DNA of 40,817 bases from Desulfocurvus sp. (GTDB lineage: Bacteria > Desulfobacterota > Desulfovibrionia > Desulfovibrionales > Desulfovibrionaceae), in the NCBI GenBank assembly GCA_020692325.1, contig JAIMKR010000006.1, positions 131,933-172,749 of the forward strand, written 5' to 3'. The notes beneath the pieces were generated by a model, which was given only the letters and a program-made list of their open reading frames with translations, was not told where the DNA came from and did no database searches. The stretch's first letter is position 1; the number at the start of each line of letters is the position of its first letter. A program made the position numbers and the translations under genes. Shown piece after piece: positions 23,904-40,801 of the stretch.

Positions 23904-30538
<6,635 letters not shown>

Positions 30539-30542
<4 letters not shown>

Positions 30543-31637: not shown

Positions 31638-32555
31638 TCAGGGTTCGCCGATGGCGCCCTCCGCCAGCCGCAGCACCTCCTCGGGATCGAAAGGCTTGCT
31701 CACCGTGGCCACGGCCTTGGGAATGGCCCTGTGGATGCCGGGCAGCCCGCTGATGACGATGACCGGGAGGTTCCGGTACTCCGGCATCCGGGAAAAGCGC
31801 TTGTAGAAGCGCGGCCCCCATTCCTCGGGCATCTCCAGATCCAGGGTGATGAGGTCGGGATTCTCGCGCAGGAGCACCTCCGTGGCCTCCACCCCGCCGC
31901 CGGCCGAACAGGTGGCGTAGCCCCGGTCGGCGAAGACCGTCACCAGGTATTCGACGATGTCCGGGTCATCGTCCACCACCATGATCTTCTTGGGCGCGCC
32001 GGGCTGGCGGACCGGTCCGGCGGCGACGATGGCCCGCCGCTGCCTCATGATGCGCCGCACGGCCCTGCGCCGGGCCGATGGATCGAGCACGGGCGGCGGC
32101 GGTATCTCCAGCTTGCGTCTGGTCTCGGCCTCCTTCCTGGAAATGCAGTTCAGCCCGTCATCCATGATGTCCTTGACCGTGACGGAGTCGAGCTTCTCGA
32201 ACATGGCCTGATCGGCGGCGATCCAGATGGCCCGCGTGAGGCAGTGCACCGAGCGCGGGCAGGAGAGCCGGTTGTGGCTGCACGTCAGTTCGGCGCTTTC
32301 GCCCTCCAGCACGCGCACCACGTCGCCCACGGTGATTTTCTCCGGTGGCATGGCCAGCATGTGGCCTCCCTCGCGCCCGCGCAGGCTCTTGACGATGCCC
32401 GCGCGTTGCAGCTCGCCCACCAACCGCTCGAGATACTTTGCGGAAATGTCCTGTCGCAAGGAGGTTTCGGCCATGGAGACCGGCCCATATTTCTCATGCT
32501 GGGCAATGTCGAGCACAAGCCGCATTCCGTACCGGCCCTTCGTCGTCAACCGCAT
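31638..32555 (-). CDS. Rrf2-family regulator fused to a receiver domain
   Basis: Predicted transcription factor of 305 residues that joins two usually separate proteins. Residues 1-135 are an Rrf2/IscR-type winged helix (MRLTTKGRYGMRLVLDIAQ; SLRGREGGHML) with three cysteines, C92-x6-C99-x5-C105, placed where IscR and NsrR bind an Fe-S cluster. A Pro/Arg-rich linker (about 145-188) leads to a complete receiver domain (189-300): acidic pocket VVDDDPD, phosphorylatable D239 in ITLDLEMP, S269 and K287. One continuous frame and AAGGAGG before ATG 32555 support a true fusion. D. vulgaris encodes Rrf1 (receiver) and Rrf2 as separate proteins that regulate the hmc operon. Here the fusion is divergent from tmc and probably regulates it (inferred). 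Confidence 0.9.
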   Translation of the reverse strand: MRLTTKGRYGMRLVLDIAQHEKYGPVSMAETSLRQDISAKYLERLVGELQRAGIVKSLRGREGGHMLAMPPEKITVGDVVRVLEGESAELTCSHNRLSCPRSVHCLTRAIWIAADQAMFEKLDSVTVKDIMDDGLNCISRKEAETRRKLEIPPPPVLDPSARRRAVRRIMRQRRAIVAAGPVRQPGAPKKIMVVDDDPDIVEYLVTVFADRGYATCSAGGGVEATEVLLRENPDLITLDLEMPEEWGPRFYKRFSRMPEYRNLPVIVISGLPGIHRAIPKAVATVSKPFDPEEVLRLAEGAIGEP

Positions 32556-32662
32556 CGACGCCCTCCTTGCTGGAAAAACTTCCAACCTCGCGGCGGGTTG
32601 CCGCATATGCGACCAAGTCACTCCACTTAAAATCACACGAGTTTGTAGCTGTACATGATATT

Positions 32663-32676
32663 TTGAACGTTTTCAA
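32663..32676. promoter_or_regulatory. Palindrome in the leader of the Rrf2-receiver gene
   Basis: TTGAA-N4-TTCAA (32663-32676) is an exact inverted repeat in the AT-rich divergent region, about 30 bases downstream of the -10 box assigned to the minus-strand promoter. It could be a regulator site, but small AT-rich palindromes also arise by chance. Confidence 0.3.
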
Positions 32677-32702
32677 CTCACACCAACACAATATGAATTG
32701 AA

Positions 32703-32731
32703 ATTATAAACATACTTTCAATGTATGTAAA
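32703..32731 (-). promoter_or_regulatory. Strong sigma-70 promoter of the Rrf2-receiver gene with inverted repeat in the spacer
   Basis: On the minus strand TTTACA (32731-32726), 17 bases, and a perfect TATAAT (32708-32703). The inverted repeat ACATAC-N7-GTATGT (32710-32728) fills the spacer and touches the -35 box, the place for an operator that blocks RNA polymerase. Autoregulation by the Rrf2 domain is a reasonable inference. The leader to ATG 32555 would be about 140 bases. Confidence 0.65.
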
Positions 32732-32764
32732 CGTTTTTCCCGAGATTTCGCTTCCCACAAAAAA

Positions 32765-32781
32765 AATACTGTGGCAGTATT
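32765..32781. promoter_or_regulatory. Perfect 17-bp palindrome upstream of tmcD
   Basis: AATACTG-N3-CAGTATT is an exact palindrome about 145 bases upstream of the tmcD start. Further half-sites follow: CAGTATT at 32823-32829 and GAGTATT at 32836-32842. This clustering suggests a regulator operator for the tmc operon. I could not assign a convincing -35/-10 pair for tmc; TATTAT at 32839-32844 is a possible -10 with a poor -35. The rest of 32556-32925 is AT-rich and has no gene. Confidence 0.5.
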
Positions 32782-32925
32782 GCACGCGAAACTTAAATCT
32801 GCGCATCGCCATATCGCATTAAACAGTATTCATGGCGAGTATTATGGATATGCAGATTTGCGTAACGCGAGTTCCGCACTGTGAGCACTTCAATACGCAC
32901 GGAGCGCGTGCGGAGGAGGAACGGC

Positions 32926-34185
32926 ATGCAGCCACCGACCTTGTGGGATTGGGAGACCGGACAAAAAGTGGTCCTTGCCTCCATTGAGCGCCCGGAGAAC
33001 TGCGCCTGGGTCGAGGAGCCCACCGTCTCCCCGGACGGCGAGCGCGTAGCCGTGCTGGCCAGCCTGGAGGCGGGCGGCTTCACCGCGCTGGTCAACGGCG
33101 AACCATGGGAAAACAGCTTCGACAAGGTTTGGCAGCCGCGCTTCAGCCCGGACGGCCGTTTCACCGCCATCGTGCAGCGTGACGGCATGTGGACCGTGGC
33201 CGTGGACGGACAGCCCTGGGAGGAAAACTTCGACTACGTGTGGAACACGCAATTCTCCGCCAGGGGCGACGTCGTCGCCGCCTGCATCCAGTCCGGCGGC
33301 GAATATGGCGTGTGCGCGGACGGACAGCCCTGGGAGAATCTTTTCGCGAACGGCAGCCAGCCCACCCTCACGGCCGACGGCAAGTCCGCCGCGCTTGTTG
33401 TGCAGACAGCCTCCCTCAAGCCCGCGGATCTGGACGCCTTCCAGGCCGGCGTGTTCAGCGTGGCCGTGAACGGCCAGGCCTGGGACGCGACCTTCGTCAA
33501 CTGCTGGACCCCGGAGTTCGACGCCCAGGGCGCGCATGTGGCCGCGCAGGTGCGCACCACACTCTACGACTACACCATCGCCGTGGACGGCAGGATCTGG
33601 AGCGAAAGCTACGACTGCATGTGGGAGCCGCGCTTCAATCCCGCCACGGGCAAGGTGGTGGCCCCGGTGCGCGCCAAGGGCGCGTGGGGGCTGGCGCAGG
33701 ACGGCCAGATCATTTGGGAGCCCGTCTTCGCGCAGTGCTGGCACCAGGTCATCAGCCAGGACGGCAGGAACATCGCGGCCATCGTGGCCCCCGCGTTCGG
33801 CGAGTTCACCGTGGCCGTGAACGCCAAGCCCTGGTCCATCCGCTTCCCCGAAGTGACGGATCTGGTCATCGGCCGGGGGGGCGAGCGCGTGGCCGCCCTG
33901 GGCAACAAGGAAAACGCCGAATGGCGCGTGCTGGTGGACGGGCGGACCTGGCCCGGCGTGTGGGACATGGCCTGGCGGCCGGTCATCGGACCCGACGGCG
34001 CGCACGTGGCCGTGAAGGTGGAAAAGAATGGCAGGCAGTCGCTGCTGGTGGACGGCCGCCCATACCCGCGCGAGTTCGACCGGCTCTGCGATCCCGTCTT
34101 CAGCCCCGACGGCGCGAAGCTGCTCATCCGCGCCATCGACAAGGGCGCCTGCGTACGCATCGTGGCCGACGTGGCCCAGGCCTGA
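32926..34185 (+). CDS. tmcD: Tmc complex subunit D, Trp-rich repeat protein
   Basis: Protein of 419 residues built from about nine repeats of roughly 40-50 residues, each with a core like V(D/N)GxPWxxxFDxxW, for example at VNGEPWENSFDKVW, VDGQPWEENFDYVW and VNGQAWDATFVNCW. The pattern suggests a beta-propeller-like fold and matches the tryptophan-rich TmcD subunit of the Desulfovibrio transmembrane complex that links periplasmic cytochrome c3 to the cytoplasm. There is no signal peptide or membrane helix, so a cytoplasmic position is expected. I choose ATG 32926, preceded by GGAGGAGGA, over GTG 32881. It is the first gene of the tmc operon here. Confidence 0.82.
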   Translation: MQPPTLWDWETGQKVVLASIERPENCAWVEEPTVSPDGERVAVLASLEAGGFTALVNGEPWENSFDKVWQPRFSPDGRFTAIVQRDGMWTVAVDGQPWEENFDYVWNTQFSARGDVVAACIQSGGEYGVCADGQPWENLFANGSQPTLTADGKSAALVVQTASLKPADLDAFQAGVFSVAVNGQAWDATFVNCWTPEFDAQGAHVAAQVRTTLYDYTIAVDGRIWSESYDCMWEPRFNPATGKVVAPVRAKGAWGLAQDGQIIWEPVFAQCWHQVISQDGRNIAAIVAPAFGEFTVAVNAKPWSIRFPEVTDLVIGRGGERVAALGNKENAEWRVLVDGRTWPGVWDMAWRPVIGPDGAHVAVKVEKNGRQSLLVDGRPYPREFDRLCDPVFSPDGAKLLIRAIDKGACVRIVADVAQA

Positions 34186-34206
34186 TCCCGGCAAGGAGGA
34201 CAGCAC

Positions 34207-34866
34207 ATGAACGCCGCATACCAATTCGTCACCGGGCCGCTGGCCTGGGCCGCCTGGGGGATCTTCCTCCTGGGATCAGCCTGGCGTCTCGTCGCCATGT
34301 ACCGGCTGGCGAGAAAGAAGGACGCCTCAGCCATCGCCTACATGAGCTGGGGCTACTCCCTGCGCTCCATCGTCAACTGGCTCATCCCCTTCAACGCGCT
34401 GGGCTGGCGCAAGAACCCGGCCATGACCATCGCCACCTTCGCCTTCCACGTCTGCCTCATCGCCACGCCCGTCTTTCTGGTGGCGCACGTGATGTTGTGG
34501 GACCAGGCCTTCGGCGTGCGCTACGCCACCATTCCCGACGCCGCGGCCGATGGCATGACCATGCTGGTCATCGCCGCCTGCCTGTTCTTCGCCGGCCGGC
34601 GGCTGGCCATGCCCGACGTGCGCGCCATCACCACGCCCAAGGACTGGTTCGCCCTGGCCATCGTGCTTGCGCCGTTCCTCACGGGATTTCTGGCCTACCA
34701 TCAGGCCATCGACTATGACACGATGATCGTCCTGCACGTGGTGACCGGCGAGATCATGCTCGCCGCGATTCCCTTCACCCGGCTGTCGCACATGGTCTTC
34801 GCCGTGTTCACCCGCGCCTACATGGGCTCGGAGTTCGGCGGCGTGCGCCACGCGCGCGACTGGTGA
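34207..34866 (+). CDS. tmcC: Tmc complex subunit C, integral membrane cytochrome b-like protein
   Basis: Inner-membrane protein of 219 residues with about five helices (starting near 13, 75, 114, 148 and 175). Histidines inside helices, including HVCLIATPVFLVAH (helix 2) and the LHVVTGE segment with LSHMVF near the end, could ligate two b-type hemes as in NarI- and DsrM-like cytochromes. It would pass electrons across the membrane between TmcA and TmcB. AAGGAGG precedes the start, and the gaps to tmcD and tmcB are 21 and 22 bases, so one operon is likely. Confidence 0.86.
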   Translation: MNAAYQFVTGPLAWAAWGIFLLGSAWRLVAMYRLARKKDASAIAYMSWGYSLRSIVNWLIPFNALGWRKNPAMTIATFAFHVCLIATPVFLVAHVMLWDQAFGVRYATIPDAAADGMTMLVIAACLFFAGRRLAMPDVRAITTPKDWFALAIVLAPFLTGFLAYHQAIDYDTMIVLHVVTGEIMLAAIPFTRLSHMVFAVFTRAYMGSEFGGVRHARDW

Positions 34867-34888
34867 GCCCCCAAGGAGGAATGAGAAC

Positions 34889-36208
34889 ATGGGCATTCAA
34901 GACAGACTCATCGAGGACGTGGGGCTTCGGCGCGGGGTTTCCCGGCTCACGCCGGAAAAAATCGAAACGGTCGTGCGCTCCGTCATGGCCAGCGAGGCCG
35001 GCGCGCGGCTCAAGGCCTACAGCGAGACCTGCATGCGCTGCGGCATGTGCGCCAAGGGCTGCCACTTCGCGCTCTCGCACCCGGACGACCCCAGCTACAC
35101 CCCCGCCGCCAAGGTCGCCCAGACCATGGGCGTGCTGCTCAAAACCGGCGGCCGCGTCGATCCCGGAACATTCTACGGCATCGCCCAGCTGGCCTACACC
35201 GAATGCAACCTGTGCAAGCGCTGCGTGCACTACTGCCCCATCGGCATCGACACCGGCTTCATCATGAGCATGGTGCGGCGCATCTGCCACAAGCTCGGCG
35301 TCACGCCGCAGTACATCCAGGACACCGCGCACTCCCACTCCACCACCTTCAACCAGATGTGGGTGAAGGACGACGAATGGATCGACACCCTGCAATGGCA
35401 GGAGGACGAGGCCCGCGACGAATTCCCCGGCCTGCGCATTCCGCTCGATAAGGAGGGCGCGGAGATCTACTACTCGGTCATCGCGCCCGAGCCCAAGTTC
35501 CGCACCCAGCTCATCTACCAGGCCGCGGCCATCTTCAACGCCGCCGGCGTGGACTGGACCATGCCCTCCCAGCCCGGCTGGGATAACTCGGACATGTGCA
35601 TGTTCACCGGCGACTTCGAGATGATGGGCCGGCTCAAGCGCCGCCACTTCGAGAGCGCGTAGAAACTCAAGGTCAAGCGCATCGTCATGGGCGAATGCGG
35701 CCACGCCTTCCGCTCCGTGTACGACAACGGCAACCGCTGGGTGGGCTGGAAATGGCATCCGGTTCCGGTGTACCACTCCATAGAATTCTTCTGGGAGCTC
35801 ATGCGCGACGGCAAAATCAAGCTGGCCAAGAAGTACCCCGGCCCGGTCACCGTGCACGACCCCTGCAACGTGGTGCGCGGCCGCGGCCTGCACGAGAAGC
35901 TGCGCGAGCTGGTGCGCTTCCTGGTCGAGGGCGGCATCGTGGAGACGGCCTCCAACCGCGAGCACAACCTGTGCTGCACGGCAGGCGGCGGCGTCATCAA
36001 CTGCGGGCCCCCGTTCAAGAACGTGCGCGTGGAGGGCAGCAAGGCCAAGGCCGAGGAGCTGCGCGCCACCGGCGTGAAGACCATCGTCGCCCCCTGCCAC
36101 AACTGCCACGGTGGCCTGGAGGACACGGTGCACAGCTACAAGCTGGGCATGGACATCAAGTTCCTCAGCGACATCATCTACGAATGCATGGTCAAACCCG
36201 AGGCCTAG
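34889..36208 (+). pseudogene. tmcB: Tmc complex subunit B (HdrD-like Fe-S/CCG protein) interrupted by an in-frame TAG
   Basis: The intact frame would encode 439 residues. The N-terminal part has two [4Fe-4S] motifs: C48/C51/C54/C58 (CMRCGMCAKGC) and C106/C109/C112/C116 (CNLCKRCVHYC). A TAG at 35660-35662 (codon 258) then interrupts between HFESA and KLKVKRIVMGECGHAF. The same frame continues for 181 sense codons to TAG 36206-36208, with the CCG-type cysteines C326, C362-C363 and C403/C406 (PCHNC). CCG domains of HdrD-like proteins bind the catalytic non-cubane cluster, so the truncated product (34889-35659) would lack it. Translation could restart at ATG 35687, but no good ribosome site precedes it. 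A C-to-T change from CAG is the simplest origin; a sequencing error is possible; recoding is less likely. Confidence 0.85.
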
Positions 36209-36219
36209 GAGGAAACGCC

Positions 36220-36597
36220 ATGAAACGTTCGCTCCCGATCCTGCTGGCCGTCGCGCTGGTCGCAGCGTTGTCCCAGGCGGCCCTTTCGCAGGAAAACATC
36301 AAGTCCCTGGCGCCCGAGGCCTTCGGCAAGCTCACCCGTCCGCCCGCGCGATTCAACCACGACCAGCATAACGAGAAGGCCGGCCTCACCGACTGCGTGG
36401 TCTGCCACCACGGCGGATCGGACGGTAAAATCGACAGGAGCGCCTCCACCGAGGGCACGCCCTGCGCCGAATGCCACAAGGTGAAGCCCGCAGGCAGGAG
36501 CACGGGACTCATGAACGCCTACCACAAGCAGTGCATCGGCTGCCACAAGGCCAGGGGCAAGGGGCCGCTGGCCTGCGGCCAGTGCCACAAGCGCTGA
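36220..36597 (+). CDS. tmcA: Tmc complex subunit A, type II tetraheme cytochrome c3
   Basis: Periplasmic cytochrome of 125 residues. The signal peptide MKRSLPILLAVALVAALSQA ends near ALSQ. The mature part has four heme c motifs CxxCH: CVVCH, CAECH, CIGCH and CGQCH. FNHDQHNEKAG holds additional histidines for axial ligation, the typical cytochrome c3 start. It accepts electrons from type I cytochrome c3 and hydrogenase and passes them to TmcC/TmcB (family knowledge). AGGAGG precedes the ATG, 11 bases after the tmcB end, so tmcA is in the same operon. Confidence 0.93.
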   Translation: MKRSLPILLAVALVAALSQAALSQENIKSLAPEAFGKLTRPPARFNHDQHNEKAGLTDCVVCHHGGSDGKIDRSASTEGTPCAECHKVKPAGRSTGLMNAYHKQCIGCHKARGKGPLACGQCHKR

Positions 36598-36605
36598 TTC
36601 ATCCT

Positions 36606-36639
36606 CCGGGCCGACGGAACGCGCGCTCCGCCGGCCCGG
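36606..36639 (+). terminator. Hairpin after tmcA
   Basis: CCGGGCCG-a-CGGA (36606-36618) pairs with TCCG-c-CGGCCCGG (36627-36639), with one mismatch and an 8-base loop. There is no T-run. It may end or attenuate the tmc transcript before the kinase gene, so the kinase could be expressed at a lower level than tmcA. Confidence 0.45.
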
Positions 36640-36683
36640 TTCCGCAACCGCGCGCGAGGGGGCCCGAGCCGAGGGGAAGGGAA

Positions 36684-38981
36684 ATGCGCAATCCCTGGGA
36701 CATCATCCGCAAGAGCCTGGCCCTCAAGCTCATCGCCACGGCGGGCCTGTCGCTGGTCGTCAGCGTGGCCGCCCTGTCCTACTTCGCCATCAGCCATCAG
36801 GAGGACATCCTCATGAGCTACGTGGTGTCCGAGGCCGACCGTCTGTGCACCACCATCAAGCTCGGCACGCGCTACGCCATGATGGTCAACGCGCGCGAGG
36901 ACCTCGACCAGATCACCACCAACATCGGCTCGCAAAAGGAAATCCAGGCCATCCGCATCTACAACAAGGTCGGGCAGGTGAAATTCTCCAACAACCCCGA
37001 GGAGAAGGACACCGTCATCGACACACGCGACCGCATCTGCCACGTCTGCCACCAGTCCACGACCCCGCCGGCCGACCTCCCGCTGCGAAACCGCGTGCGC
37101 ATCTTCACCGGGCCCGACGGCGTGCGCCGGCTGGGCGTCATCAGCCCCATCCAAAACGAGCCCGGCTGCTCCGGCGGCTGCCACTTCCACCCGCCGGACA
37201 AGAAAGTCCTCGGCGTCATCGACGTGGTGGTGTCGCTCGCGCCCACCGACCGCGAGATCGCCTCGTTCCAGACGCGCAGCGTGGCTTTCACGGTCATCGT
37301 GCTGCTCGGGGTGGGGCTGGTCATCTTCATCTTCATGGGCCGCTTCGTCATCCGGCCCATCCGCCGGCTCATCACCGGGGCCACCCTCATCGCCGAGGGC
37401 GGCCAGTGCTCCAGCATCGACATCGACCAGGCCGACGAGATGGGCACGCTGGTGCACACCATCGAACGCATGGGCAAGAGCATCAGCGAGAAGCAGATCG
37501 AGCTCAACCGCCAGCGCGACGAGTATCAGACCCTGTTCTCGCTTGTGCCGTGCATCATCACCGTGCAGGACCGCGACTTCAAACTGCTGCGCTACAACAA
37601 GGACTTTCAGGAGAAGTTCCGGCCACAACCCGGCGACACCTGCTTCCACGCCTACAAGGGCCGCAGCAGCAAGTGCCCCAACTGCCCCGTGGTCAAGACC
37701 TTCGAGACCGGGCGCTCGTACTCCGGCGAGGAGAGCGGCGTGGACGCCACCGGGGCAATGCGCCACTGGATCGTCACCAGCTCGCCCGTCAAGAACGACG
37801 CGGGCGAGGTGGTGGCCGCCATGGAGATGTGCCTGGACATCACCAGCCGCAAGCAGCTGGAGGACAAGCTGGAGAAGAGCGAGCGCAAGTACCTGGCCAT
37901 TTTCAAGAACATTCCGAATCCGGTCTTCGTGCTCGACGCCGCCACCCTGACCATCCTTGACTGCAACGAGTCCGTGCAGCCGGTGTACGGCTTCGAGAAG
38001 GCGGAGCTCGTCGGCCAAAGCTTCCTCATGCTGTTCCCCGAGCGGGAACGCGAGGCCATGCAGCCCCGCCTGCGCGAAAACGCCCTGTTCGACCGCGTCA
38101 TCAACGTGGCCAAGGACGGCCGGCGGTTGTTCGTCACGGTGCGCCTCTCCCCCTCGGAATTCAGCGGCCAGCGCGTGCTGCTCGCCACCACCAGCGACAT
38201 GACCAAGCGCCTGGAGACCGAGCAGCAGCTCATCCAGGCCTCGAAAATGGCCACGCTGGGCGAAATGGCCACGGGCATGGCCCACGAGCTGAACCAGCCG
38301 CTGTCCGTCATCAAGACCGGGGCCAGCTTCATCAAGCGCAAGGTGGACCGCGGCGAGGACATCGACCGGGCCATCCTGGCCACACTCACCGCCGAGATCG
38401 ACTCCCACGTGGACCGCGCCAGCCGCATCATCAACCACCTCCGCGAGTTCGGCCGCAAGCCGGACATGCAGTTCGGTCCGGTGGACGCGGGCGGCGTGCT
38501 GCGCCGCGCCCTGGACATCTTCAGCCAGCAGCTCAAGCTGCGCGAGATCGAGGTGGTGATGGACATCGACGCCGACCTGCCCCCGGTGAGCGCCGACGCC
38601 GGCCGCCTGGAGCAGGTGTTCATCAACATGCTCATCAACGCGCGCGACGCCATAGAGGACAAGTGGAAGGCCGCCGCCGGGCGCGGGGAGACGCCGGAGG
38701 GCGGCAAGCGCATCACCCTCGCGGCGCACCGTGCCGGGAACGCGGTGCTGGTGGCCATCGCGGACACGGGCGCGGGCATCCCCCCCGGCGTGCGCGAAAA
38801 GATCTTCGAACCCTTCTTCACCACCAAGCCCGTGGGCAAGGGCACCGGGCTCGGGCTGTCCATCAGCTACGGCATCGTCAAGGACTGCGGCGGCTCCATC
38901 GACGTGGTCTCCGAGCCGGGCGGCGGCGCGCGCTTCGACATCACCCTGCCCCTGGCCGGGACGGAGGCGACGGAACAATGA
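36684..38981 (+). CDS. Sensor histidine kinase with periplasmic heme-type motifs
   Basis: Kinase of 765 residues. TM1 (about 13-35) and TM2 (about 200-223) flank a periplasmic domain of roughly 165 residues with C119-H-V-C122-H123, a canonical CxxCH heme c site, and C162-S-G-G-C166-H167-F-H169, a CxxxCH variant. HAMP (about 220-275) and two PAS domains follow; the first carries C320, C331 and C334 (KCPNCPV). HisKA has H534 in GMAHELNQPLSVI, and the HATPase (about 620-755) has NMLINARDAIED and GLGLSISYGIV. The domain probably senses periplasmic redox state. The gene lies just after tmcA and overlaps the next gene by four bases (ATGA). Confidence 0.88.
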   Translation: MRNPWDIIRKSLALKLIATAGLSLVVSVAALSYFAISHQEDILMSYVVSEADRLCTTIKLGTRYAMMVNAREDLDQITTNIGSQKEIQAIRIYNKVGQVKFSNNPEEKDTVIDTRDRICHVCHQSTTPPADLPLRNRVRIFTGPDGVRRLGVISPIQNEPGCSGGCHFHPPDKKVLGVIDVVVSLAPTDREIASFQTRSVAFTVIVLLGVGLVIFIFMGRFVIRPIRRLITGATLIAEGGQCSSIDIDQADEMGTLVHTIERMGKSISEKQIELNRQRDEYQTLFSLVPCIITVQDRDFKLLRYNKDFQEKFRPQPGDTCFHAYKGRSSKCPNCPVVKTFETGRSYSGEESGVDATGAMRHWIVTSSPVKNDAGEVVAAMEMCLDITSRKQLEDKLEKSERKYLAIFKNIPNPVFVLDAATLTILDCNESVQPVYGFEKAELVGQSFLMLFPEREREAMQPRLRENALFDRVINVAKDGRRLFVTVRLSPSEFSGQRVLLATTSDMTKRLETEQQLIQASKMATLGEMATGMAHELNQPLSVIKTGASFIKRKVDRGEDIDRAILATLTAEIDSHVDRASRIINHLREFGRKPDMQFGPVDAGGVLRRALDIFSQQLKLREIEVVMDIDADLPPVSADAGRLEQVFINMLINARDAIEDKWKAAAGRGETPEGGKRITLAAHRAGNAVLVAIADTGAGIPPGVREKIFEPFFTTKPVGKGTGLGLSISYGIVKDCGGSIDVVSEPGGGARFDITLPLAGTEATEQ

Positions 38982-40117
38982 GCGAGGGACCTTCCCTTAT
39001 CCTGGTGGACGACGAGGACGGCCTGCGGCGGGTGTTGTCGCTCTCCCTCGCCGACCGGGGCTGGCGCGTGCGGCAGGCCGCCGGCGGCGCGGAGGCCCTG
39101 GCGCTCTTCCGGGCCGAGCCCGCGCCCGTGGTGGTGACGGACATCAAGATGCCCGGCATGGACGGGCTCGCACTCCTGCGCGAGGTCAAAAAGCTGGACC
39201 CGGACTGCGAGGTGGTGCTCATCACCGGCCACGGCGACATCGACCTGGCCATCCAGGGCATCAAGCTCGACGCGGCGGATTTCGTCACCAAGCCCATTCG
39301 CGACGACGCGCTGGACATCGCCCTCTCCCGCGCGCGGGAGCGCCGGGCCATGCGCCGGGCCATCCGCGAGCACACGGAACACCTGGAGCGGCTGGTGGAG
39401 CAGAAGACGCGCGAGCTGCTGACCGCCGAGCGGCTGGCCGCCGTGGGCCAGGCCGTGACCGGGCTCTCGCACTCCATCAAGAACATGGCCAGCGGCCTGG
39501 AAGGCAGCCTGTTCCTGCTGCGCCAGGGGCTGGACGGCGACCGGCAGGCCTACCTGGAGCAGGGCTACGAGATGCTGGAGGCCAACGTGCGCCGCCTCAA
39601 GGAGCTCTCCCTGGACATGCTGCGCTTCGCCCGGCCGCAGGACGTGCGACCCGTACCGGCCGATCCGTCGACCCCGGCGCGGCAGGTGGCGGAGCTGCTC
39701 GGGCCGCGCGCCCGGGCCGACGGCCTGGAGCTGGTTCTCGAAGCGCCGTCAATGGGCGGCCGCGTCGCGCGCATCGATCCCGAGGCCATGCACCGCTGCC
39801 TGCTGAACCTGACAGGCAACGCGCTGGACGCCTGCCGCGCCGCCGGCTTCGGCCCGGACAAGCCTGGAGGCCGCGTGGTCATCGCCGTGTCCCCCCAGCC
39901 GGACGGCGGCGTGCGCTACGCCGTGACCGACAACGGCTGCGGCATTTCCGCGGCCACGCGCGAAAAACTCTTCACGCCGTTCTTCAGCACCAAGGGCGAG
40001 ACCGGCAGCGGCCTGGGGCTGGCCACCACGCGGCAGGCCGTGCTCGCGCAGGGCGGGACCATCGATATTGCGACTGTAGAAGCAGGTAAAACCGTCTTCA
40101 GTATTATCATACCATGA
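38978..40117 (+). CDS. Receiver-histidine kinase hybrid
   Basis: Soluble signalling protein of 379 residues with an N-terminal receiver (about 6-120): acidic pocket LVDDEDG and D55 in VVTDIKMPGMDG, with K near FVTKPI. A coiled region (about 120-150) leads to a histidine-kinase core with H165 in GLSHSIKNMASGL and an HATPase (about 265-378) ending SGLGLATTRQAVLAQGG. It has no output DNA-binding domain. Its ATG overlaps the previous stop, so it is co-translated with the heme-type kinase and is the likely direct partner. It might relay phosphate, act as a phosphate sink, or be a kinase switched by phosphorylation. Confidence 0.9.
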   Translation: MSEGPSLILVDDEDGLRRVLSLSLADRGWRVRQAAGGAEALALFRAEPAPVVVTDIKMPGMDGLALLREVKKLDPDCEVVLITGHGDIDLAIQGIKLDAADFVTKPIRDDALDIALSRARERRAMRRAIREHTEHLERLVEQKTRELLTAERLAAVGQAVTGLSHSIKNMASGLEGSLFLLRQGLDGDRQAYLEQGYEMLEANVRRLKELSLDMLRFARPQDVRPVPADPSTPARQVAELLGPRARADGLELVLEAPSMGGRVARIDPEAMHRCLLNLTGNALDACRAAGFGPDKPGGRVVIAVSPQPDGGVRYAVTDNGCGISAATREKLFTPFFSTKGETGSGLGLATTRQAVLAQGGTIDIATVEAGKTVFSIIIP

Positions 40118-40261: not shown

Positions 40262-40801
40262 GTGGACGAAGTCCTACTTGAACAAGACGGCACGGTAAGT
40301 GGTCACGACGACGCGACGGTGGACGACGTGCTCGGCGCGCTGGACGCGCGGATCACTCTCGCGCCCGGCTACAGCCTGCGCTCGTTCATGCGCATGTTGT
40401 GCGCCAACCCCGTGTTGTTCCGCCTCAACGACTTCGCCCGCGACTTCGCCGCCGCCTACCCCGCCTGGCCCGCCGCGGACTGCGCTCCCGTCGGGCTCAC
40501 GCGCCTGGAGTTCGCCCGCGTGGTGGAGATGATCGGCCACCCCGCGCCGCCGAGGCTGGAAATCTACCACGTGCTGCGCGGCCTCGACGCCACCGGCGCG
40601 GACATGGAGATCAAGGGCTGGCGGGTGGAGATGCTGCTGGACGTCCCGCTGGTCCTTGGGCCGCTCAGGCACATCGTTTTCGGCGACAGGGTGGCGGAGT
40701 TCTCCTTCGCCACGGTTTGCGACCTGTTCGACTTCTTTCAAGGTGTTCTTTGGCAGCTCGCTTTTCACGGCACACCGCGCGAGTGCGCGTTAAGGAGTTA
40801 G
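40262..40801 (+). CDS. Protein of unknown function downstream of the tmc signalling genes
   Basis: Soluble protein of 179 residues that I do not recognise. It is mixed alpha/beta with no signal peptide, membrane helix or Cys motif (only C48, C74, C153 and C175, scattered). It begins with an acidic segment (DEVLLEQDG). The start is GTG 40262 with AGGG nearby; no better ATG is in frame before residue 43. The coding character (GC-rich third positions) supports it as real. The next gene starts two bases after its stop, so the two are probably co-translated. Confidence 0.65.
   Translation: MDEVLLEQDGTVSGHDDATVDDVLGALDARITLAPGYSLRSFMRMLCANPVLFRLNDFARDFAAAYPAWPAADCAPVGLTRLEFARVVEMIGHPAPPRLEIYHVLRGLDATGADMEIKGWRVEMLLDVPLVLGPLRHIVFGDRVAEFSFATVCDLFDFFQGVLWQLAFHGTPRECALRS

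Follow-up and report, generated by a model that had tools for sequence, protein, structure and literature searches.

Do the signalling genes that surround the tmc genes of Desulfocurvus sp. form a circuit that controls these genes, and in what order would its parts pass on a signal? Tmc and Hmc are complexes that carry electrons across the membrane in sulfate reducers, and to our knowledge their adjustment in these bacteria is poorly understood. The whole stretch of DNA analysed here, called the window, comprises 40,817 nucleotides (assembly GCA_020692325.1, contig JAIMKR010000006.1, positions 131,933-172,749 of the forward strand). An initial annotation had described in it a self-contained redox circuit made of an Rrf2-receiver regulator, tmcDCBA, a kinase with heme-type motifs and an overlapping receiver-kinase. 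The Pfam and NCBIfam scores bear out the existence of these genes, and the residues assigned to phosphotransfer agree as well: H534 in the kinase, D55 and H165 in the receiver-kinase, and D239 in the Rrf2-receiver fusion, if the latter is counted from the ATG at 32555 (D266 from an upstream GTG). The reading favoured here, which has about an even chance of being correct, is that of a local redox two-component module serving the Tmc complex, in which the kinase would phosphorylate DVU0259-type receivers directly. As an association, the local circuit is well supported by the sequences; the genes, their conservation, the origin of the fusion, the clustering and the dyads described below can be read from them directly.

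The fusion is encoded on the minus strand (31638-32555) and comprises 305 amino acids from the ATG at 32555; with the GTG, the open frame extends to 32636. An Rrf2 domain (PF02082, 129.6 bits, cut-off 30) and a receiver (PF00072, 62.5 bits) were found in this one frame, and the receiver also exceeded the cut-off of the NCBIfam model DVU0259_DivK, NF045717 (169.2 bits, cut-off 160). The active site of the receiver is complete, with the acidic residues, the phospho-Asp (Asp239), Ser and Lys in place. The Rrf2 domain carries three cysteines (Cys92, Cys99 and Cys105 from the ATG), which are kept in 9/9 fusions and in 48, 50 and 54 of 54 Rrf2 rows. The predicted structure consists of two folded domains, and CymR/IscR and CheY-like receivers predominate among its best PDB matches; the loop with the cysteines (residues 88-108) is poorly predicted. 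The Rrf2 fold and the three cysteines are shared with the iron-sulphur (Fe-S) regulators IscR, NsrR and RirA, whereas the models of these regulators contain no receiver, and the fusion stays far below their cut-offs (118 versus a cut-off of 208, 56 versus 182 and 61 versus 193 bits, respectively).

The fusion is present in nine loci (the window, L009-L012, L090, L091, L110 and L111). It is visibly adjoined by tmc in eight of them, the contig of L010 starting at the fusion itself, and both the kinase and the receiver-kinase occur in all seven fusion loci that extend far enough. Among 120 Desulfovibrionales genomes, the window's own included, the fusion was found only in four of one genus and one further genome, and of 297 genomes from the phylum, with up to seven candidates scored in each, only G000 and G005 gave a match that spanned both domains at an E value of 1e-28. 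For the trees and gene orders, own-genome duplicates (L001-L008, L088, L089) were omitted, as were L013/L014, which were taken as contigs of L090/L091. The fused receivers form one clade (99/99); adding their stand-alone counterparts from these tmc loci gives a group of 17 rows (99/93), within which the forks are weaker. By its place in this tree, the fused receiver is a duplicate of the stand-alone receiver from the same tmc loci, which was then joined to Rrf2. The fused Rrf2 domains likewise form one clade (100/100), with a long stem and an unresolved position, inside a group of 43 of the 54 rows that are mostly linked to hmc or tmc (99/98). The receiver thus belongs with the DVU0259 family by its score and grouping; unlike the nine fusions, in which it lies C-terminal to Rrf2, the other members of the tree are, as far as labelled, separate receiver genes. 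We read NF045717 as denoting stand-alone receivers without an output domain, which the model itself does not state, and the window and eight other loci depart from that reading. Judging by the locus numbers, DVU0259 presumably lies near tmc in D. vulgaris.

The initial annotation knew of no described system with this exact set of parts. This was not supported: a figure legend in PMC10924467 (citing Keon et al. 1997) states that rrf1/rrf2 regulate hmc expression in D. vulgaris Hildenborough, and in part of PMC5109826 the hmc/tmc genes of Desulfococcus multivorans have as neighbours three response regulators, a universal stress protein (USP) and four kinases, an arrangement said there to resemble that of D. 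vulgaris. Rrf1 is DVU_0530, a match to a single-domain receiver, according to part of the text of PMC13344952. As at hmc, an Rrf2-family protein and a receiver-type regulator adjoin a related transmembrane electron-transfer complex in the window, but here they are one protein at tmc and there two genes at hmc; in the window a heme-type kinase and a receiver-kinase are linked as well, and the shared gap contains dyads. Where separate rrf1 and rrf2 genes beside hmc define the system, the window has one fused gene beside tmc, so that the fusion may work like rrf1/rrf2 without being classed with them. Another pair, Ddes_0843 (Rrf2) and Ddes_0844 (receiver) of Desulfovibrio desulfuricans 27774, is nitrate-induced and is called a two-component system by the authors of PMC5701242 in the section concerned; the neighbouring numbers recall the arrangement in the window, whereas the genes are separate. 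DVU_0263-0266 are given as TmcABCD in a passage of PMC10920352. The main text of PMC3333781 (Rajeev et al. 2011) contains no mention of Rrf2, Tmc, Hmc, DVU025x or DVU026x, and the sections of PMC4215793 and PMC5193443 covered here name no tmc or hmc regulator. In the literature search, which had little coverage of subscription journals, nothing was found on DVU0258/DVU0259, one preprint on DVU0529/DVU0530, and no description of an Rrf2-receiver fusion at tmc.

The signal would enter the module through a membrane histidine kinase of 765 amino acids (36684-38981, plus strand), in which a periplasmic Cache-like sensor is followed by HAMP, two PAS domains, HisKA (H534) and HATPase. Two heme-type motifs were found in the sensor and compared in 51 homologues, kinases with less than 60 bits to the window sensor being excluded. 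The first, C119-x2-C122-H123 (CHVCH at 119; 37038-37052, plus strand), is kept in 50/51 homologues. The second, C162-x3-C166-H167-x-H169 (CSGGCH at 162; 37167-37190, plus strand), retains C162, C166 and H167 in 51/51 and H169 in 50/51, with three to four residues between the cysteines. From this conservation, the domain probably carries two c-type hemes. In its structural model (residues 1-275) the sensor looks Cache-like, with a long helix, five strands and a return helix; the mean predicted local distance difference test score is 81, falling below 50 at residues 163-167. Single Cache domains were among the first Foldseek matches of the model (WalK, TMt up to 0.74), and GSU0582 was matched with an E value of 0.005 and a root-mean-square deviation of 15.9. 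A profile of 20 sensor homologues gave a weak match to the chemoreceptor chain 3b42 (E value 0.0012), in which a CxxCH stands opposite the second motif and the first motif has no counterpart. PF21563 was found in 16 of the 20 homologues at an E value of up to 1 and in the window below its cut-off (19.2, cut-off 27), and PF11845 had no match in the window and one among the 20 homologues at an E value of 0.23. The sensor thus appears to resemble the sCache_heme/DUF3365-Tll0287 sensors (with GSU0582 and GSU0935), as described in part of PMC12889525, in a probable Cache fold and in the likely place of a c-heme-type motif, namely the loop that leads into the last strand, which is poorly predicted here; unlike them, it has two motifs instead of one, the second with three to four residues between the cysteines. 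Since the same source, as far as covered, reports nitric-oxide-sensor properties for those sCache_heme members that are joined to signalling domains, this kinase may equally well respond to a gas ligand as to redox.

To which receiver would the kinase pass its phosphate? The simplest wiring according to the initial annotation runs from H534 of the heme kinase to D55 and H165 of the receiver-kinase, then to D239 of the fusion and to the operators. The receiver-kinase (38978-40117, plus strand; PF00072 91.6 bits, PF02518 68.9 bits) overlaps the kinase stop with its start (ATGA), has the phospho-Asp and His residues that such a relay needs and comes after the kinase in 39 of 60 kinase frames, so the two travel together. 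Gene adjacency was, however, the sole support of this wiring, and gene order fits a direct step from kinase to receiver better: the gene directly before the kinase, taken as the nearest labelled one in the 60 frames, is a DVU0259-type receiver in 18 cases, an Rrf2 gene in nine and tmcA in nine, the window included. The HisKA of the receiver-kinase is also below the Pfam cut-off (16.1, cut-off 26.9), and the gene is missing from 16/16 genome stretches with hmc only, although 11 of these have the kinase, being present in 3/11 contig loci with hmc only. Two further receivers and a second receiver-kinase are, besides, at hand. A linear relay is therefore unlikely. A direct step is preferred because the fused receiver is a close paralogue of the stand-alone one, with a first helix almost the same, and because the kinase neighbours such receivers in many loci.

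These further receivers also bear on the claim that the circuit is self-contained, which was not borne out. The window ends with its contig (C6) and so cuts the locus, whereas homologous loci continue past the receiver-kinase with ORF179, a USP-like protein, a receiver, a DVU0259-type receiver and a second receiver-kinase (L015, L090, L091, L110, L111). Counterparts of the USP-like protein, the two receivers and the second receiver-kinase occupy the first bases of contig C21 of the same genome, with 58-89% identity to those in L011, L012, L015, L090, L091, L110 and L111. Because related loci continue in this way with stand-alone receivers and a second receiver-kinase, the phosphate has further possible acceptors nearby. 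No DNA-binding domain was found by Pfam in either window kinase, in agreement with the proposal that the Rrf2 domain is the only one of its set. In the four C21 proteins none was judged real among the NCBIfam matches at an E value of 1e-8, the sole scan made of them (no Pfam scan), and the DNA-binding regulator models listed for them align over their receiver part; the Rrf2 domain is therefore the sole DNA-binding domain found in the wider set as well. Against this stands the part of PMC5109826 cited above, where the response regulators and the universal stress protein beside hmc/tmc of D. multivorans are termed 'DNA-binding'.

The stand-alone receivers allow another explanation, namely that the kinase mainly serves them, they in turn acting on proteins and not on DNA, and that the fusion shares only the neighbourhood, being run mainly by an Fe-S cluster of its own or by a different kinase. 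A stand-alone DVU0259-type receiver is retained in all six fusion-bearing cases that reach far enough (G000, G005, G024, G077, G104 and L011), the three cysteines are conserved in most Rrf2 relatives, as counted above, and 63 receiver-type matches in the genome make it likely that other kinases are plentiful. The fused receiver, however, has preserved the active-site residues and, for the most part, the first helix of its stand-alone paralogue: in the alignment of all nine fusions, the phospho-site and this helix are nearly identical in the two kinds of receiver, so that both are expected to share their kinase partners. A lineage that acquired a receiver from this very locus and retained it, yet made no use of the kinase next to it, would also be surprising. 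We consider this explanation rather doubtful and retain direct phosphorylation of both receivers by the kinase as the preferred reading.

The association of the parts was followed with profile-based counts in the 120 genomes. TmcB was found in 76 of them (at least 650 bits in the co-location analysis; 74 are above the family cut-off), the kinase sensor in 44 and the DVU0259-type receiver in 60. The co-location rows comprised 141 for TmcB/HmcF (82 genomes), 111 for the receiver (60), 127 for Rrf2 (72) and 55 for the kinase (44); nine HmcF-like rows (G016, G031, G039, G041, G045, G050, G054, G066, G113) and 23 Rrf2 rows were left out, and all counts for Hmc and Rrf2 are to be read as 'at least'. 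The kinase coincides with TmcB in 42 genomes and occurs without it in two. With a limit of 20 kilobases (kb), 40 of its 55 hits have Tmc or Hmc nearby, 50 a DVU0259-type receiver, 32 an Rrf2 domain and 26 all three, a fusion counting as both receiver and Rrf2; a random place would give about 0.02 for each single co-location, kinship being taken into account neither in this expectation nor in the association by genome. Non-fused receivers above the family cut-off also lie mostly near the complexes (66 of 70 within 20 kb of Tmc or Hmc). These counts agree with the claim that the parts belong together. In 17 genome stretches with TmcB, hand-picked for their hits as were the other stretches, the kinase was present in 13, a separate Rrf2 in nine and the fusion in five, and hmc loci (L095, L096, L115, L122) show the order HmcE, HmcF, USP, receivers, second receiver-kinase, Rrf2, kinase. 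In the same genome as the window, a separate Rrf2 gene lies directly after HmcF (L118; G000:C21, about 18.7-21 kb), with no labelled DVU0259-type receiver in that stretch.

The fused regulator is separated from tmcD by a gap of 370 bases, counted from its ATG, where the initial annotation had placed shared operators. Two operator-like dyads of the form CAYAC-N7-GTRTG were found there, neither assigned to a strand: the first (32679-32695) has one mismatch in the window and is present with at most one mismatch in 8/8 gaps (perfect in 6/8), and the second (32711-32727), 32 base pairs (bp) from it, is perfect. The 32-bp spacing is kept in 7/8 gaps; in L091 the second dyad is altered on both arms with its symmetry retained. 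The exact CATAC-N7-GTATG-type pattern has 15 sites in five whole genomes, eight of them in the fusion-tmcD gap, while the pattern read backwards has nine sites. A sigma-70-like promoter of the fusion gene, TTTACA-17-TATAAT (11/12), was predicted at 32703-32731 on the minus strand (one found, 0.6 expected from shuffles); the second dyad falls within its spacer, and the corresponding position relative to this dyad is the best site on the fusion strand in 6/8 gaps. Because the promoter-like site straddles the second dyad, the sequences suggest that the fusion represses its own gene. A sigma-54 site in the gap was rejected, the TGGCA..TTGCA block being too short by eye. A one-mismatch dyad at 40108, near the end of the receiver-kinase, is within chance. 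Exact sites outside the gap also occur in L009, L011, L015, L091, L115, L117 and L120; the one at L117:3134, in another genome, lies just past a separate Rrf2 gene.

Taken together, the kinase would sense the periplasmic redox state, or a small ligand, through its Cache-like and probably two-c-heme domain and would phosphorylate DVU0259-type receivers directly, the fused one included. The receiver, separate in most relatives seen, would have been duplicated here and its copy fused to Rrf2, giving a phosphorylation-controlled Rrf2 factor to which the Rrf2 cysteines may add a cytoplasmic Fe-S input. This factor would bind the two dyads between its own gene and tmcD, repress itself, one dyad lying inside the predicted promoter and the other just downstream of the -10 element, and set the output of tmc. 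The stand-alone receivers and the two receiver-kinases might tune the response or act as a phosphate sink. In this scheme we infer from sequence the heme and Fe-S occupancy, the phosphotransfer partners, the DNA binding and the sign of control.

Several observations weigh against such a module. The heme loops of the sensor model are poorly predicted. TmcB occurs without the kinase in 34 of the 76 genomes, and among 49 contig loci with TmcB, many of which end early, there are 22 with the kinase, one with a separate linked Rrf2 and three with the fusion; Rrf2 is therefore not a general linked partner of TmcB loci. The receiver, present in 47 of these 49 loci, owes this partly to construction, as the loci were found with it (the 78 contig loci derive from the best 80 of 196 relatives of the fusion and are hence selected for the receiver). 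Of the expected co-occurrence across Desulfovibrionales, the clustering of the kinase with tmc/hmc stood, whereas the TmcB genomes without kinase and the restriction of the fusion to five of the 120 genomes speak against it. As to the operators, seven of the 15 exact sites fall outside the fusion-tmcD gap, and the eight gaps that supplied the motif are also those used for counting it, so that its count shows rarity elsewhere and no independent discovery. In the window itself, matches with at most one mismatch are within chance (four found, 2.16 expected; 16/100 shuffles have as many); operator-like dyads are present where the initial annotation had placed its operators, and by the window sequence alone they do not exceed chance. 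Finally, the internal stop in tmcB may mean that the target complex is broken in this genome, or the base may be an assembly error.

This stop, a TAG at 35660-35662, was absent from the initial annotation, whose tmcDCBA is otherwise confirmed. All four genes lie in one cluster on the plus strand: tmcD (32926-34185; NF045725, 597.3 bits, cut-off 440), tmcC (34207-34866; NF045723, 346.5 bits, cut-off 240), tmcB (34889-36208) and tmcA, encoding an acidic tetraheme cytochrome c3 (36220-36597; NF045722, 163.8 bits, cut-off 114). TmcB exceeds its cut-off only if read across the TAG (811.9 bits, cut-off 735, one TAG inside), whereas TmcD, TmcC and TmcA exceed theirs as they stand; its halves align to TmcB positions 2-252 and 254-430, flanking the TAG, and each is below the cut-off. 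The gaps from tmcD to the kinase are short (21, 22, 11 and 86 bases), and with the final overlap of kinase and receiver-kinase (ATGA) they make it likely that tmcD through the receiver-kinase form one operon. The window tmcB is the only match above the TmcB cut-off with an internal stop in the 120 genomes and the single TmcB match in its genome. Recoding with pyrrolysine was rejected: the best PylS match had 28.8 bits (cut-off 178.15), and among 58 relatives the residue at the place of the TAG varies between A, Q, M, T and I. The TAG is a nonsense change or an assembly error. Were it the former, the circuit might be a remnant in this genome, its control genes persisting without a working complex; besides the stop in the sole TmcB match, the use of TAG as a terminator here, for example at the end of tmcB itself, and the lack of a PylS above the cut-off would fit. 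The remaining genes of the operon are, however, open and conserved, an error of sequencing or assembly may account for a single base, and intact tmcB copies occur in relatives. We regard a remnant as very improbable.

If the module is as proposed, a further step, put forward tentatively, is that the fusion is a redox AND-gate, in which an Rrf2 Fe-S regulator that reads cytoplasmic redox is gated through phosphorylation by a two-heme Cache kinase that reads periplasmic redox, and a 'Rosetta stone' for separate Rrf1/DVU0259 receivers. In the first case tmc would be set by redox on both sides of the membrane that Tmc connects; in the second, some separate Rrf1/DVU0259 receivers would work by docking on those Rrf2 proteins that regulate Hmc and Tmc. 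As DVU0259-type receivers lack an output domain, a natural fusion to an Rrf2 DNA-binding domain, next to a heme-type kinase, offers a concrete system of one kinase, two receivers and one promoter fragment with predicted operators. In related bacteria, the parts from which this circuit appears to be assembled remain separate genes.

Other features of the region may be mentioned. ORF179 (40262-40801, plus strand) is a conserved tmc neighbour with homologues in other tmc loci; it has no Pfam or NCBIfam match and is present in 34 of 66 loci and stretches with TmcB. No RNA family reached the Rfam gathering score in the window. A frame of 2212 amino acids (23904-30542) shows kinase similarity, a weak receiver match and, by eye, repetitive PAS-like text, and is followed by a cupin and a TrxC-like thioredoxin. 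In four genomes (G061:C196, G055:C120, G042:C96 and G032:C3), one in-frame TGA lies within HmcF-like genes that belong to a single family (f2) and possibly represent a selenocysteine version of HmcF.

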